Below, piece after piece: positions 18,046 to 44,017 of a DNA stretch of 64,000 bases. The DNA is from Methanolacinia petrolearia DSM 11571. Its GTDB lineage: Archaea; Halobacteriota; Methanomicrobia; Methanomicrobiales; Methanomicrobiaceae. How positions within the stretch are numbered: the stretch's first letter is position 1; each line of letters opens with the position of its first letter. The notes below the pieces were generated by a model that had not been told where the DNA came from, ran no database searches, and was given only the letters and a program-made list of their open reading frames with translations. The stretch is taken from assembly GCF_000147875.1 (NCBI RefSeq), contig NC_014507.1, forward strand, positions 620,001-684,000. The letters are read 5' to 3'. Both the position numbers and the translations under genes were made by a program.

Positions 18046-18512
<467 letters not shown>

Positions 18513-38248: not shown

Positions 38249-39348
38249 TCGATGAAATACCTGAAGAAGACAAAAAACGCATGGAGCTTTCAGGGTTCGA
38301 GTTCGATGCCCGGAAAAGATCGGGTAGTTTTATCCAGAGAGATCAGCATATTCATCTCTCTTCATCGAAGGTTGAGGGAATCGAGATGCTCCCGATCGAG
38401 ATCGCCCTTAAAAAATATGACTGGCTTAAGGACTATTACTGGAATCTTGTCGACCGGGATAAAGACGAGTATACGAAATTTGTAGCGGAAAAAGAAGAAA
38501 AAGAGGGTCCCCGCGGTTTCGTAGTTCTCGCGAGAAAAGGCAGCAAAAATATATTCCCCCTCCAGTCCTGCCTCTTCATGAAGTCGGCGGAGATCCAGAC
38601 GGTCCACAATATAATTATTGCGGAGGAAGGTGCCGAGCTTCACCTGATTACCGGCTGTACCAGCAGTATCGGCAGGGAGAAGGGGACGCATTACGGCATA
38701 ACCGAGATATATGTAGGGAAGGATGCCCAGGTCAGCAATACGATGATCCACACCTGGGGAGAAAACATAAACGTATTCCCCCGGAGTGCGACAAAAGTTG
38801 AAGAAAACGGAACATTCCTTTCGAATTACATCAGCCTGAAACCTGTAGGGAAGGTCCAGATGTATCCTGTCGCCGATCTTGCCGGTAAAAACTCGGTTGC
38901 CCGTTTCAACTCAGTTGTTCTGGCACCGAAAGGCTCTCATCTCGATCTGGGCCAGCGTGCCCTTCTGACCGGCGAAGGTTCGAGTGCCGAACTTATTTCA
39001 AGGGTAATCACCTCGGGAGGCGTTGTGTTTGCAAGATCCCACATTGCAGGAATTTCGGATAACACCAAGGGCCATATAGAGTGCAAGGGTCTCATCCTTG
39101 AAGACGGTGTAATACATTCGATTCCTGAAGTGGAGGGGCGGCTTAAGAATACCGAACTGACACATGAGGCGGCGGTCGGAAAGATCGCACGCGATGAGAT
39201 CGAGTACCTGATGGCGAGGGGTCTCGATGAGGAAGAGGCCACTGCAACAATTATCAGGGGATTTCTTGATGTCAGGATCAAGGGACTGCCCGATTCACTT
39301 CAGAAAGAGATCGATGCCGCAATTGATGCGGCCGAATCCGGATTCTGA
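38236..39348 (+). CDS. sufB: SufB/SufD-type Fe-S scaffold protein
   Basis: A 370-residue beta-helix scaffold protein of the SufBD family. I place the start at ATG 38236 (MPEIIDEIPEEDKKR), 9 nt after GGAG and overlapping the sufC end by 13 nt; the open frame further upstream is a shadow. The C-terminal core has GSHLDLGQRALLTGEGSSAE and ISDNTKGHIECKGLILEDG, typical of SufB/D. A single homologue, here 370 residues, replaces the bacterial SufB-SufD pair in many archaea. Function: builds Fe-S clusters together with SufC. Confidence 0.92.
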   Translation: MPEIIDEIPEEDKKRMELSGFEFDARKRSGSFIQRDQHIHLSSSKVEGIEMLPIEIALKKYDWLKDYYWNLVDRDKDEYTKFVAEKEEKEGPRGFVVLARKGSKNIFPLQSCLFMKSAEIQTVHNIIIAEEGAELHLITGCTSSIGREKGTHYGITEIYVGKDAQVSNTMIHTWGENINVFPRSATKVEENGTFLSNYISLKPVGKVQMYPVADLAGKNSVARFNSVVLAPKGSHLDLGQRALLTGEGSSAELISRVITSGGVVFARSHIAGISDNTKGHIECKGLILEDGVIHSIPEVEGRLKNTELTHEAAVGKIARDEIEYLMARGLDEEEATATIIRGFLDVRIKGLPDSLQKEIDAAIDAAESGF

Positions 39349-39392
39349 ACCTCATCTTTTTTATTACATCATCTCACATTTCATTCATACAG

Positions 39393-40016
39393 ATGGATTA
39401 TATCGATATCACGATCCCGCTCTCGGAAAAGACTCCGGTCTTCCCGGGCGACCCGGAGGTCAGGTTTAATCCCCTGGTCAGGGACGGCTTCAGGCTGACA
39501 TCAATAGAGCTCTCGTCGCACAGCGGAACCCATGTCGATGCACCCTTACATTATATCGAAGGAGGCCTGAGTGTTGACCGGATCCCTCTCGGGAGAATCA
39601 ACGGTGAATCGATAGTCGTCGATCTGAGAGGTACCGGGCACTCGTCGGGCTTTATCACGAGAGGGGATATCCCGGAAAAAACAAATGGTGCGAAGATATT
39701 GATCCTGAACACAGGCTTTTCACCGGAATCTTCGGGCATGGATCGTTATATGTCCATAAACATCGAATGTGCAGGATATCTGGCGGATTGCGGGTATACG
39801 TGTGTCGTAACCGATGCACCCTCGATAGAATCTTTTGACGGCGACGGAACGGTTCACCGCATCCTCCTTGGGAGAGATGTTTATATTATAGAGATGGCGG
39901 ATCTGTCACATGTAAGTCCGGGAAGATACCATCTGTATGCAATGCCCCTGAAGCTTGAGGGCTGTGACGGTTCACCTGTACGTGCGGTACTTGTACCATG
40001 TTCTAAGGAGGTCTGA
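39393..40016 (+). CDS. kynurenine formamidase-like cyclase family hydrolase
   Basis: A 207-residue metal-dependent hydrolase of the cyclase/arylformamidase family. The metal-binding motif HSGTHVDAPLH lies at about residues 43-53 and the N-terminal DITIPLSEKTPVFPGDP is characteristic. In methanogens tryptophan degradation is not expected, so the physiological substrate is uncertain. It is followed 2 nt later by a Cys-rich gene with a strong ribosome binding site, indicating an operon. Family is certain; substrate is not. Confidence 0.88.
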   Translation: MDYIDITIPLSEKTPVFPGDPEVRFNPLVRDGFRLTSIELSSHSGTHVDAPLHYIEGGLSVDRIPLGRINGESIVVDLRGTGHSSGFITRGDIPEKTNGAKILILNTGFSPESSGMDRYMSINIECAGYLADCGYTCVVTDAPSIESFDGDGTVHRILLGRDVYIIEMADLSHVSPGRYHLYAMPLKLEGCDGSPVRAVLVPCSKEV

Positions 40017-40018
40017 GA

Positions 40019-40627
40019 ATGAGTATTATATCTGATGCTGTTGATGAGATGGAGAAGAAACTTGCAGGAAGCGGCTGCGATCATGGTGTGGTGGCGCTTT
40101 CAAAAAGTTCGGAAAACGATATCTGCCCTTTTCTTGAGGGTGTATGTCTTGAAGCTTCATATGGCGGGAAAAGGATCTTTATTGCCACGTCCTATCCCCT
40201 TGATGTGAAGACCAGGGTGTCGTTTATGTACGGGCAGGAACTGAATTCACCGGTCCAGAGAACAGCAGCATGTGCAATATTAAACAGCCTGTCCAGTTTC
40301 ATCTGTTTTCCGAGGATCTCGGGAGCATGCCCGGAAGGCTGTGGCGAGAAGTGCCTTGAAGAGCTGATAGATGAGACTGCGGGCAGGAAGGTATACCTCA
40401 ACGGAACGATGCCCTCCCTCAGGAAGAAACTTGAAGATCGTATCGTATCAGACCCGCAGTCTGCCGATATCATCATCGTATCGGGGGACGGGTTGTTCTC
40501 CGACGAAGGGCTGGAGATCTGCGATCGATATAAGGACAAAAAAGAGATGCTCTTTTATGCTCCTGCCACGTCGGCCCTTGCAAATATGCTGAATCTGCGT
40601 CACTGGTGTCCTTATGGGCGGAAATAA
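40019..40627 (+). CDS. conserved-looking Cys-rich protein, function unknown
   Basis: A 202-residue soluble protein with GGAGGTC 6 nt before the ATG, co-translated with the cyclase family gene. The N-terminal half contains scattered Cys residues (HGVVALSKSSENDICPF) and the middle has a Cys cluster, GACPEGCGEKCLEE. The C-terminal part, IIIVSGDGLFSDEGLEICDR then FYAPATSALANMLN, looks like a Rossmann-type fold reminiscent of DUF364 proteins, though I am not sure. Metal or Fe-S binding is plausible from the cysteines. No function is assigned. Confidence 0.8.
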   Translation: MSIISDAVDEMEKKLAGSGCDHGVVALSKSSENDICPFLEGVCLEASYGGKRIFIATSYPLDVKTRVSFMYGQELNSPVQRTAACAILNSLSSFICFPRISGACPEGCGEKCLEELIDETAGRKVYLNGTMPSLRKKLEDRIVSDPQSADIIIVSGDGLFSDEGLEICDRYKDKKEMLFYAPATSALANMLNLRHWCPYGRK

Positions 40628-40646
40628 GGGGGTGTGGCCAAGCCAG
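40628..40646 (+). other. tRNA-Leu 5'-end-like 19-mer
   Basis: Immediately after the preceding stop codon, GGGGGTGTGGCCAAGCCAG resembles the acceptor and D-arm start of an archaeal tRNA-Leu. No complementary CACCCCC acceptor strand or T-arm follows within range, so there is no intact tRNA. It may be a fragment or coincidence. Confidence 0.2.
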
Positions 40647-40771
40647 TGAATCTCGCGAAGAGTGTCACTGTAGTCTGAACATCCTCAACAATACTCATTA
40701 TATCGATAACGGCCGGGACGGGTCGGAGTAAAACCGGTTAATATTCCCCAACGCATATGACCGGATTTTCG

Positions 40772-41093
40772 TTTGCACTTTTGCACTTGTTTGCACCCGG
40801 TTTGCACTTCAAAAGTGCAAACTAAAAAATGAAAATTCAAGGATATTTCCCTGATTATTGTACATATATTAAATATTTTATTTTTAGTACTATAGTTTGC
40901 ACTAATTTTCAGGCACACAGTAGTTGATCTCTGTATTTGTTTTGATATTTTCTTGTGTGTTTTTTTAAATTTAGTGCAAACAAAATTTTTAAATTCCTAT
41001 CCGGGCCGGATGTCCTGAAAAAAGGCTTTATGTCGGATATTTGGTTTGCACTTTCAAAGTGCAACTTAGTGCAAAGTAGTGCAAAAGTGCAAA
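40772..41093. mobile_element. MITE-like palindromic element with TTTGCAC iterons
   Basis: Twelve copies of TTTGCAC or its complement (one with a mismatch) lie in 322 bp. They form two clusters that are imperfect inverted repeats of each other: 40772-40825 against 41093-41041, about 54 bp with roughly 45 matches. Within the left end, TTTGCACTT-CAA-AAGTGCAAA (40801-40821) is itself a perfect hairpin. An inner inverted pair, GTTTGCACTAA (40895-40905) and TTAGTGCAAAC (40971-40981), is nearly centred in the element. The inside is AT-rich and non-coding. No clear target-site duplication was found. It may be a non-autonomous element whose transposase sites are the iterons; an operator array or replication-type iteron cluster is the alternative. 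Confidence 0.55.
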
Positions 41094-41184
41094 GATGATC
41101 TTTTTCGAAGAGGTCTTCTGAGGTTGCGGGCATTCCGGTGCCTGTTAAAGAGAGACCCAGTTCTCCTTCGATTTTCTTTGCCAT
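41094..41184 (-). pseudogene. truncated 5' gene remnant abutting the palindromic element
   Basis: On the minus strand from ATG 41184, about 30 codons (MAKKIEGELGLSLTGTGMPA and onward to FEKDH) read like a normal protein start, with codon usage like that of the neighbours and GGATGA about 7 nt upstream. At about 41094 the frame runs into the TTTGCAC repeats and loses coding character, although it stays open to 40909. It looks like a gene beginning whose remainder was lost or displaced by the element. No family was recognised. Confidence 0.3.
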
Positions 41185-41397
41185 TTTCTTATCATCCCGC
41201 TCATTTTCTTCCCGCAGGATTTACGGGAAGACGATTAATTGGGATTTGATCCGGGATTATTTATATCGATGTCCGTTTTAAGGCATTTATTTTGTTTGTT
41301 TTACGGAATCAGTCCGGTGAGTTTTTGGATCTCTTATTTCTTTTTGAGCTTCGCCGTCTGTTGAACACTAGTGATACTTGCTTTTTATACACACAGG

Positions 41398-42054
41398 CTA
41401 GCGAAGAGATCTCTGTTTCTCCAGAACGATCCAGAAACCCGAATCGTCGCTGATGCATTTATAGAATATTTCCGCCTCCTCAAGCGCCATTAGAATTCGT
41501 ATCCGGTTGTCGACAGTTTTCTTCTTCCCGTCCTCGTTGTCTTTTCCCCATTCGGGATCTTCCTTAGCCATCTCGCCGCAGATGTAATCCCTTGTTTCAG
41601 CGTCTCCGAATCCTCCGCCGATGAATGTCTTTCCCCCGGGTTTTAAGACCCTCAGGATTTCAGTAAAGGCGGACTTCAGGTCATCCCAGAAGAAGATAGA
41701 TCCCCGGCTGATTACCAGATCTGCATATTCATCCTCAAAGGGCATATCAGTAATATCACCCTGGACGAACCTGCACCTGTCATCTAGTTTTTCCTGCCTC
41801 GTATTCTCCTCGGCGTATTTCCTGTTTTCAGGCAGTAAGTCCATAAGTACGACTTCCAGGCCGGTGATCTTTGCAAGAGATATGCCGAGCATTCCTGAAC
41901 CGGCACCTGCATCTATGCAGATCCCTTCGGATATTCCGCAGAATTCTTTGATTCGCCCGGCAATTGCCGGATATGCAGGTGCAAAAAGCCCCCGCGACAC
42001 CCTGGCCATCGACTCGGCTTTCTCCGCAGGTGACCTGTGTTCGCCCTGAGGCAT
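41398..42054 (-). CDS. class I SAM-dependent methyltransferase
   Basis: A 218-residue methyltransferase. SAM-binding motif I is CIDAGAGSGMLGISLA (about residues 45-60), the acidic end of strand 2 is VVLMDLLPENRKYAEE, and motif IV/post-motif regions are FVQGDITDMPFEDEYADLV and VLKPGGKTFIGGGFG. GGAGG precedes the ATG by about 8 nt. The substrate is unknown. It stands divergent from the radical SAM fusion gene. The late-domain cap is short, as in small-molecule methyltransferases. Confidence 0.9.
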   Translation of the reverse strand: MPQGEHRSPAEKAESMARVSRGLFAPAYPAIAGRIKEFCGISEGICIDAGAGSGMLGISLAKITGLEVVLMDLLPENRKYAEENTRQEKLDDRCRFVQGDITDMPFEDEYADLVISRGSIFFWDDLKSAFTEILRVLKPGGKTFIGGGFGDAETRDYICGEMAKEDPEWGKDNEDGKKKTVDNRIRILMALEEAEIFYKCISDDSGFWIVLEKQRSLR

Positions 42055-42265
42055 TACGTTATCCTCCTGGAGTCTGCCGGAAAAATTTGCAGAATGTTTT
42101 GTTTCATGTAAATCAGGTTCAATTTACATTCAGTTAATAATTCAGGGAAATTAAACATTATATCTAAGATCTCATTCCTTTTGTATTAAATGTGCATGAA
42201 AGGAGCCTTTCAGCGTTCCGGGGAGATCACCGGCGAGCGGTTATTTAAAGAGGATGGTGTTTAGA

Positions 42266-44017
42266 ATGAAGAACTCTCAGATTTTAGAAACAGCAAAGAC
42301 AGAGGGGATAGAAAATCCGCCGGAGGCAAATCCGGTAAGATGTAATGTCTGCGAGAAGAGGTGCACGATAGCCGGGGATTCGACCGGCATATGCAGGATG
42401 TATACGGCATCGGACGGAGTCCTGAAGGAGAAATATCCCGGGATGCTCTTCGCTACATATCCTGTTTCGATAGAAAATATCCCCATTCTCCACTTCATGC
42501 CCAACGGAAAGCTGATGCTCGTATCCACAATCGGGTGCAACTTCTCGTGTCCGGGCTGCGTATCCGAGATGATAATTAAAAACACGGATTCGGTCGCGAG
42601 GATGATGAAAAAAACCCTTCCTGGGGAAGTTGTGGAGGCGGCGAAATCAGAGGACTGTTCAGGGATCGTCTTCTGCCTGAACGAACCCTCGGTATCCTAT
42701 TACACTTTTCTCGATCTCATCAGGACCGCAAAGGAGAACGGCCTGGCAGCAGGCTGCTCGACGAACGGCTACATGACGGAAGAAGCTGTTCTCGGGGCTG
42801 CAAAACACCTCGACTTCGTAAACATCGGCCTTAAGGGATCGAGTCCGGAGAGGTATCGTGAATGCGGGGCTGGTTCCCCCGATCCAATATTCAGGAACAT
42901 AAGGCTCCTGCACGAAAACGGTGTCCATGTCGAGGTTTCGATAATGCATCTCCTCGGAAGGGAGGACGAGGTGATGAGAGCGGCAGAGATGATTGAGGAT
43001 GTCTCAAGGGAGATCCCCCTCCAGATCATGCCGTTCATGCCCCACGATGAGTCCCAAAAGGAGTGCCAGCCGTCTGTTGCCGAATCAGAAAAGCTTTGCG
43101 CCTCGCTCGAAAAATACCTTGATTACGTGTATATTTTCAATACTCCGGAAACAGAACGCCTGAATACATACTGTCCCTCCTGTGGAAAAATCGTCATAAA
43201 GAGGAAGTTCAACGGCCCGATGGGAGCAAAAGTGATCAGCTACAGGGATGGAGGGATGTGCGAATGCGGGAGAAGTGCGGGGATTAAGGGCGAAATCAGA
43301 ACCGAGGGATTTGTTGAACCGAGGCACATGGGAGGATACAGGTCGATAAAAGCCCTCGATGCAATAGAAACTCACCTCGCCGTACTCGGTGTCACCGACA
43401 GTTCGAAGGTAATCGACGTCTGGATCGACACGGTAGAGAGCGGTTATCTCAGGGGTCTTCACAAGAAAAAATCCACTGTGGAAGGATTTTTCGACGACCT
43501 TCACCATTTCGCCTCTCTCGCCGGGGCCGAAGATAGTTACATGGCTATGTACGAAAAATATCACCCGGTTGTCGAGAATATATCGGAAAGAGCAGAAGGT
43601 GCGGAAAAACCTCCTGTATACTCGATAATGGCAAAACCGGTTCTCCCGCTCTTCGTGGATAAGATGGACATAGATCTGATACGCATCGCAGGCGGGCACC
43701 CGATAAACCTCGATCTCGGGCTGGACGATAAATCGAAGAAGATGGAGATCGATCCAGCTGTCATTAACTCATTCCGTCCCGAGTTCGTGTTTGTCAGCGG
43801 TAAAAGGGGAGATGACGAAGGCTTCTCGACCGAAGAGTGGAAGAAAGCCGGGTTTGATATCCCCGCGGTTGAGAAAGGGAATGTATTCAGGTTCATATAC
43901 CCGGACTCGGACAGCACCTTCAGCTGGGTGATTACTCTTATGGATATCGCAAACAAGCTCCATCCGGAGATCTTCTCGTTCGATCTCGATTATGAGAAGG
44001 AGAGGCTCGGGATCTGA
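42266..44017 (+). CDS. radical SAM enzyme fused to a binding-protein-like domain
   Basis: A 583-residue protein. The start at ATG 42266 fits the GGTG/GAGG leader better than ATG 42254. Residues about 20-330 form a radical SAM (PflA/AmmeMemoRadiSam-like) domain with the cluster motif GCNFSCPGC (Cys91, 95, 98) and a preceding N-terminal Cys set (RCNVCEKRC, then GICRMY). A second Cys pair set (YCPSCGK, MCECG) follows near 300-330. The C-terminal 240 residues resemble FecB/BtuF binding proteins, ending VEKGNVFRFIYPDSDSTFSW and then ANKLHPEIFSFD, but without a signal peptide, so they are cytoplasmic. The reaction is unknown; the fused domain may bind a metal complex or corrinoid. Confidence 0.85.
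   Translation: MKNSQILETAKTEGIENPPEANPVRCNVCEKRCTIAGDSTGICRMYTASDGVLKEKYPGMLFATYPVSIENIPILHFMPNGKLMLVSTIGCNFSCPGCVSEMIIKNTDSVARMMKKTLPGEVVEAAKSEDCSGIVFCLNEPSVSYYTFLDLIRTAKENGLAAGCSTNGYMTEEAVLGAAKHLDFVNIGLKGSSPERYRECGAGSPDPIFRNIRLLHENGVHVEVSIMHLLGREDEVMRAAEMIEDVSREIPLQIMPFMPHDESQKECQPSVAESEKLCASLEKYLDYVYIFNTPETERLNTYCPSCGKIVIKRKFNGPMGAKVISYRDGGMCECGRSAGIKGEIRTEGFVEPRHMGGYRSIKALDAIETHLAVLGVTDSSKVIDVWIDTVESGYLRGLHKKKSTVEGFFDDLHHFASLAGAEDSYMAMYEKYHPVVENISERAEGAEKPPVYSIMAKPVLPLFVDKMDIDLIRIAGGHPINLDLGLDDKSKKMEIDPAVINSFRPEFVFVSGKRGDDEGFSTEEWKKAGFDIPAVEKGNVFRFIYPDSDSTFSWVITLMDIANKLHPEIFSFDLDYEKERLGI

Follow-up and report, generated by a model that had tools for sequence, protein, structure and literature searches.

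Array c1 of Methanolacinia petrolearia, a probable orphan copy of an iteron-type origin carried inside PrimPol-MCM genes of Methanomicrobiales

The mirrored array of heptamer words designated c1 (positions 40772–41093) in the window, i.e., the 64-kb stretch of the Methanolacinia petrolearia DSM 11571 genome analyzed here, is probably an orphan copy of an iteron-type origin that lies inside the PrimPol-MCM gene of integrated elements in Methanomicrobiales. From sequence comparisons, we infer that the array is an origin, that the family protein binds its words, and that the orphans act in trans. The earlier note on this DNA had proposed three readings (miniature transposable element, iteron array, and multi-site operator), of which the iteron array is the best supported; c1 may have a multi-site operator role.

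c1 (660772–661093 in genome coordinates) is non-coding and contains 12 words with dyad symmetry in 322 bp: 11 exact copies of TTTGCAC/GTGCAAA, both strands counted, and one copy with a single mismatch (41059). The extent given in the earlier note is exact, as is its count of 12 if the near-exact copy is included. The + strand of c1 corresponds to the coding strand in the gene copies described below, a polarity set from the inner words; an inverted placement of the orphans relative to the genes was dropped once these words were compared. The words are split six per half, and five of the six pairs are mirrored, with pair centers at 40932.5 (three pairs) and 40933 (two pairs); the inner pair is off-center (40938). 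Dinucleotide shuffles of c1 (n = 2000) contain a mean of 0.23 words and a maximum of 3. Across the whole 64 kb, 17 exact TTTGCAC words occur vs. 6.1 expected, and the only other heptamers with at least 11 copies per 322 bp are ATATATA (31 copies at 18217) and AGTGCAA, the latter being an overlapping shift of c1's own word.

Each arm combines four direct words with one inverted word, and a single one of the eight direct words is mismatched. The A arm (40772–40821) carries direct words at 40772, 40780, 40790, and 40801 and the inverted word at 40815, and the B arm (41045–41093), which mirrors it, carries words at 41045, 41059 (one mismatch), 41069, 41079, and 41087. Two inverted clusters and an inner pair are present as the earlier note had described them, but its arm length of about 54 bp has to be corrected to 49–50 bp. 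The arms are 92% complementary between 40772–40796 and 41069–41093 and 88% between 40802–40826 and 41040–41064, and the single-stranded DNA fold of 40760–41105 is 7.75 sd better than those of its own shuffles. In the whole genome, exact matches to the double word TTTGCACTTTTGCAC are confined to the two ends of c1. Between the A arm and the inner word lies an AT-rich stretch (40822–40895), a candidate melting region, the GC content of which (0.19) is reached by about 1% of the 74-bp segments of the 64 kb; it includes TTATTGTACATAT, which is common to c2, c3, and c4. The inner word pair (40896–40902 and 40974–40980; 40896–40980 in full) is arranged around CACACA/TGTGTG segments.

To the right of the array, 41094–41298 constitutes a flank common to c1 and orphan c4 (80% identity over ~210 bp). 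A 91-aa ORF on the − strand (40909–41184) runs from this flank into the array. The earlier note had taken it for a truncated gene start, but it is probably not a maintained gene, because its N-terminal residues are not the same in the sister species (alignment by eye). c1 stands alone: no initiator helicase or primase gene is linked to it, there is no tRNA gene in the surrounding 12 kb, and an Rfam search of 39000–43000 returned nothing up to E 1.

A search of the genome, as suggested in the earlier note, showed that several copies exist. Three further non-coding orphans were identified, c2 (575905–576228, + strand), c3 (1217521–1217847, − strand), and c4 (about 2509690–2510028, − strand), along with four near-full gene copies (481570–484518, 1144114–1146849, and 1721272–1724163 on the − strand; 2035025–2037817 on the + strand) and two fragments, c6 (2291510–2292234), which comprises the start of the upstream gene A, the array, and a Zn ribbon, and c7 (about 791590–792094), a 3′ fragment. 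The array at 481.8–482.1 kb sits inside a 983-aa open reading frame. Membership of the repeats in a coding gene, which the earlier note had named as a counter-reading, is the normal state of such arrays but does not apply to c1, as every one of the six reading frames contains stops in all four orphans. The GC content of the orphans is 0.29–0.34, whereas the linkers of the gene copies in this genome have 0.45–0.50. DNA searches with c1 hit 9 of 40 relatives, spread over 6 of 19 genera, and those with c3 hit 4 of 150 genomes of the order, strongly only within the genus and its two species.

Matches to the parent protein were found in 92 of the 150 genomes of the order (Methanomicrobiales), with up to 10 matches per genome, and in 73 of 108 good assemblies. 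When one genome per species is considered, 168 of 195 pattern matches encode relatives; 75 of the 80 kept are labeled as Methanomicrobiales or their genera, and five only as "Euryarchaeota." The gene product is predicted to join a PrimPol to an MCM-like helicase, with a disordered linker and then a Zn ribbon. In models of one family member, the N-terminal part is a predicted PrimPol (best Z 16.8, with 173 residues superposed at an rmsd of 2.4, to a cyanophage PrimPol; weak by Foldseek alone, E 0.002) and the middle part resembles an MCM helicase (best Z 22.1, with 285 residues superposed at an rmsd of 3.5; E 1.5e-9 by Foldseek), which would bring an AEP fold and an MCM-like AAA+ fold together in one protein. 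Residues 755–900, which are encoded by the array DNA, are predicted to be disordered (pLDDT <50), and an ordered domain that carries four conserved cysteines comes next; the domain arrangement of the whole protein is uncertain, given a pTM of 0.49 for the fold model. Searches of Pfam and NCBIfam gave no family over the curated cut-off for the PrimPol-MCM proteins, PHROGs gave a single match, to a family without known function (E 0.0027), and a PDB sequence search gave one match (E 0.23). Partial matches were found in plasmid and phage collections (two records each), and no confirmed match in viral_contigs. PrimQH and its relatives, which belong to mobile elements, resemble this family in joining a PrimPol to an MCM-family helicase in one protein, together with a zinc/PriCT region and a winged helix; the portion of that account drawn on here names neither Methanomicrobiales nor an in-gene origin (PMC5862659).

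Iterons that lie within the coding sequence of an initiator, in excess beyond what the protein accounts for, are a lambda-O-type trait that is found in these genes but not in the non-coding c1. Across 40 distinct genes (54 loci minus 14 duplicates), the linker is 123–174 aa long and lies between the same two protein landmarks. Its inverted 7-mers beat synonymous-codon shuffles in 32 of the 40 (at most 2 of 200 shuffles reaching the gene value), including 27 in which no shuffle reaches the inverted 7-mer content of the linker. A second set of 80 loci yielded 68 after removal of 12 that were unfit in length or integrity, and 59 after removal of nine already in the first set; 40 of these 59 further genes beat their shuffles, with a limit of at most 1 in 100. 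Control stretches have z >3 in 0/40 and 3/59 genes, the control for the first set being an equally long stretch that starts 200 codons upstream. The genes that fail the shuffle limit (8/40 and 19/59) include some with diverged or lost arrays, or with words missed by exact 7-mers. The words (TTTGCAC, TTTGCAGC, TTTCAGCA, TTTTCATC, GTTGCAA, GCTGTCA, AGCGGAA, and others) differ between genes, whereas the two arms within one gene match: 7-mers shared with the own arm total 456 in the 40 genes, vs. no more than 281 in any of 10,000 random pairings. The own arm ranks first, alone or tied, in 13/40 and within the top three in 23/40; it is often not ranked best because close relatives share words. In all 40 genes, the 25–50% part of the linker has a lower GC content than the gene (0.47 vs. 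0.62).

c1 has the plan of the iteron origins of SaPI/PICI, with two word sets that flank an AT-rich region. As described in the portions of the SaPI/PICI sources used here, the iterons form two sets around an AT-rich region and are read by Rep, and a primase and an initiator helicase, sometimes fused, are encoded (PMC6092414, PMC7581432). For the gene copies, the likeness extends to the predicted primase-helicase module and to the integrated state of the elements, although the SaPI origin is placed in those portions just downstream of rep and not within coding sequence as is the array here, and both the protein family and the domain of life are different. Lambda provides a parallel for a word array within an initiator-type gene, as iterons and an AT-rich tract are reported, in the section of the source consulted, in the middle of gene O (PMC7466680). 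Lambda has four direct iterons, whereas two mirrored arms and an inner pair are present here. Lambda O is not known to be a primase-helicase. By analogy, the Methanomicrobiales family appears to combine SaPI-type with lambda-O-type traits.

Mirrored word arrays are also a plan of partition or operator sites, and the array could be another cis site of the elements, with a partition (centromere-like), transfer, or regulatory role, the orphans being chromosomal copies. The small conserved upstream genes A and B, of unknown function, could encode a word binder for such a site. We nevertheless consider this unlikely, as the array occupies the interior of a primase-helicase gene, which is an origin place as in lambda O (just downstream in SaPIs), and an AT-rich stretch lies between the arms. 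A literature search, in which few subscription papers were covered, returned nothing on the Methanomicrobiales PrimPol-MCM family, on origins located within genes of this type, or on word-tracking orphan origins. PrimPol-MCM fusions of mobile elements are themselves already known (PMC5862659).

The orphans resemble their cognate genes in the words (0.78–0.90 for c1–c4 overall) far more than elsewhere (0.27–0.39). With the words of both sequences masked and each gap scored as a difference, c1 agrees with gene L057 at 99/110 word positions and 110/358 others; the corresponding values are 98/123 and 83/305 for c2 vs. L025, 100/128 and 91/251 for c3 vs. L025, and 94/104 and 123/330 for c4 vs. L096. 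Shuffles in which the words are kept give rest scores of 0.27–0.31 with gaps counted and 0.37–0.39 without gaps. The gap-free likeness outside the words is 0.49 for c1 and 0.51 for c4, vs. 0.37 and 0.39 in these shuffles (reached by 0/40 for both), so that a weak trace of common descent persists; this trace is weaker for c3 (reached by 3/40) and is not seen for c2 (13/40). With the orphan as reference, likeness outside the words to the two best genes for each of c1–c4 is 0.40–0.51. A shuffle of all letters gave 0.33–0.36.

Ranked against the 40 genes, c1 is closest to L059, L057, and L060 (0.89–0.94), compared with 0.51–0.73 for the four genes of its own genome; L102 and L025 are top-ranked for c2 and c3, and L096 for c4. 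A search of the genome with the L057 protein recovered only the four known genes (56–60% identical) and two fragments, and thus no gene with c1's words. Fragment c7, which is truly decayed, has no split between words (0.82–0.86) and rest (0.79–0.81), and intermediate states are represented by c6 (words 0.87–0.92, rest 0.77–0.80) and by L058, an array with a Zn-ribbon stub (words 0.86, rest 0.59). The series of fragments and orphans spans even decay to likeness in the words alone. Two sequences were omitted from the word/rest comparison: G001:C30 (words 0.80, rest 0.74), as a rough cut-out, and L054a, a sister-species orphan (best 0.81) that matches no subfamily clearly.

It is conceivable that the orphans are plain relics, i.e., dead leftovers of deleted elements, the words of which persist through gene conversion between arms or through the ease with which short repeats align. 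We regard this as doubtful. It would agree with the existence of a series of deletion products (c6, c7, and L058), with the broken state of c1 in the sister species, and with the slight gap-free gene likeness of c1 and c4; however, neutral decay should be even, as in c7, and conversion between the arms of one orphan would neither preserve its likeness to a gene located elsewhere nor explain why c1 and c4, with their common flank, carry the words of two subfamilies. Because c1 is geneless yet has kept the words of one subfamily, this orphan most likely serves, or served until recently, in trans. More tentatively, the orphans are possibly live parasites or traps of the full elements; the word set of both arms would then shift as a unit to match that of an element subfamily, in a lock-and-key evolution of autonomous elements and orphan origins within the same archaeal genomes.

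Flank sharing across different loci involves c1/c4 and c2/c3 (~130–210 bp each), and the flank common to c1 and c4 (~210 bp, 80%) is absent from the gene loci compared. Derivation of the right flanks of c1–c4 from decayed Zn-ribbon ends was unsupported by nucleotide and translated comparison. Despite their one common flank, c1 and c4 bear the words of two different gene subfamilies (c1 vs. c4: words 0.67, rest 0.50; shuffles 0.40): either one orphan switched its words as a set, or the arrays were exchanged with the flank kept. Shared flanks at different loci would fit a transposase-type MITE, as proposed in the earlier note, and so would the short, dispersed, non-coding character and inverted arms of these copies. 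However, a MITE is highly improbable, as the c1 arms are built from 7-bp words, the parent arrays are located within replication genes, the relatives found are those genes and not transposons, and there is no consistent target duplication. Using two end definitions for each of c1–c4, direct repeats at the ends are 8 bp in one case (c4) and 3–6 bp in the other seven, the random 95th percentile being 6 bp; the 8-bp repeat of c4 sits in the flank that c1 shares and hence is not a fresh target duplication.

Comparison of the two species indicates that the orphans are old and some are being lost, while c4, at least, shows word-by-word conservation. For c4, words agree at 99/100 positions vs. 209/246 for others (p 3e-5), and for c2 at 104/111 vs. 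199/226 (p 0.13). The A arm of the sister-species c1 is gone via a 124-bp deletion between two copies of GTTTGCACT; c1 is therefore not indispensable. The c2 unit (G000:C1:575905-576387; G001:C1:29983-30465) adjoins the same gene in both species, presumably for a universal-stress-type protein, in opposite orientation, and the sequence on its far side differs between the two. Two dispersed repeat families (~84–93 bp) are represented at G000:C1:576306-576389 and 577209-577301; the latter occurs dozens of times across the three genomes searched, and the former also terminates the flank common to c2 and c3.

Among the 88 loci with enough upstream sequence, gene A lies upstream of the PrimPol-MCM gene in 61 and gene B in 56; neither has a Pfam or NCBIfam family over the cut-off. 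An integrase like that of L101, of the phage-integrase family (E 2.5e-20, passing the Pfam cut-off), is present at 20 of the 88, always upstream and on the same strand. At 8 of these 20, a tRNA gene ends directly before the integrase, and loci with an integrase at a tRNA gene are taken as integrated elements. No downstream repeat of the tRNA 3′ end (attR) was detected in reach at these eight loci (L105, L109, L156, L160, L199, L209, L212, and L229) or at L097; L174 has one 15-bp tRNA-end repeat, but its tRNA is not beside its integrase. Several of the eight junctions have a second T-arm-like motif (GTTCAAATC-like) within ~30 bp after the tRNA gene, perhaps a mark of the attachment site. M. petrolearia itself has three phage-integrase matches (at 1886, 2055, and 2327 kb), none of them near c1 and the nearest to a gene copy being ~17 kb off, from the copy at 2035–2038 kb; with no integrase near, the gene copies of this genome may be stranded. 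A tRNA-Leu gene (L097 6094–6181) lies just upstream of gene A in the 2035-kb copy, with no integrase between. A free circular form was not found by end overlap in 27 short whole contigs.

At 6 of 26 loci, and at L065, a second copy of the 3′ end of the gene (Zn ribbon) lies ~0.6–2.8 kb downstream, past other genes (L025 1712–1846; L097 11867–12072; L098 4819–4926; L100 12249–12451; L108 12172–12336; L112 5441–5515; L065 2716–2823), an arrangement suggestive of cargo insertion at the 3′ end of the gene. At L100 (G001:C28), the duplicated 3′ end is followed, ~0.9–4.7 kb past the gene, by an array of 33-bp repeats with a ~66-bp period and by ORFs that we take to resemble Cas2 and Cas1.

In the mechanism that we propose, a word-reading protein, probably the PrimPol-MCM protein itself, would sit on both mirrored arms of the parent array and melt the AT-rich stretch between them, from which helicases would be loaded in both directions. 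The same DNA would encode a disordered linker tolerant of any word, and element-specific words would keep elements from firing each other's origins in one cell. The words may be read by the Zn ribbon or a winged helix; in a correlation search for the word-reading domain, the best segments fall in the array-coded linker itself, and the best one outside it (residues 732–756, partial correlation 0.15) is unconvincing. c1 would be a site used in trans, either as a non-autonomous satellite origin or as a chromosomal titration (incompatibility) site for its cognate element.

The PrimPol-MCM genes would thus represent a common methanogen replicon family that lacks a Pfam or NCBIfam model and has an origin-like array written inside its replication gene. 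The wide word diversity of the family provides a natural series in which to ask how initiator and origin specificity change together, and the orphans would serve as natural test cases for origins that are non-autonomous or titrating. The arrays are also candidate replication modules for Methanomicrobiales vectors.
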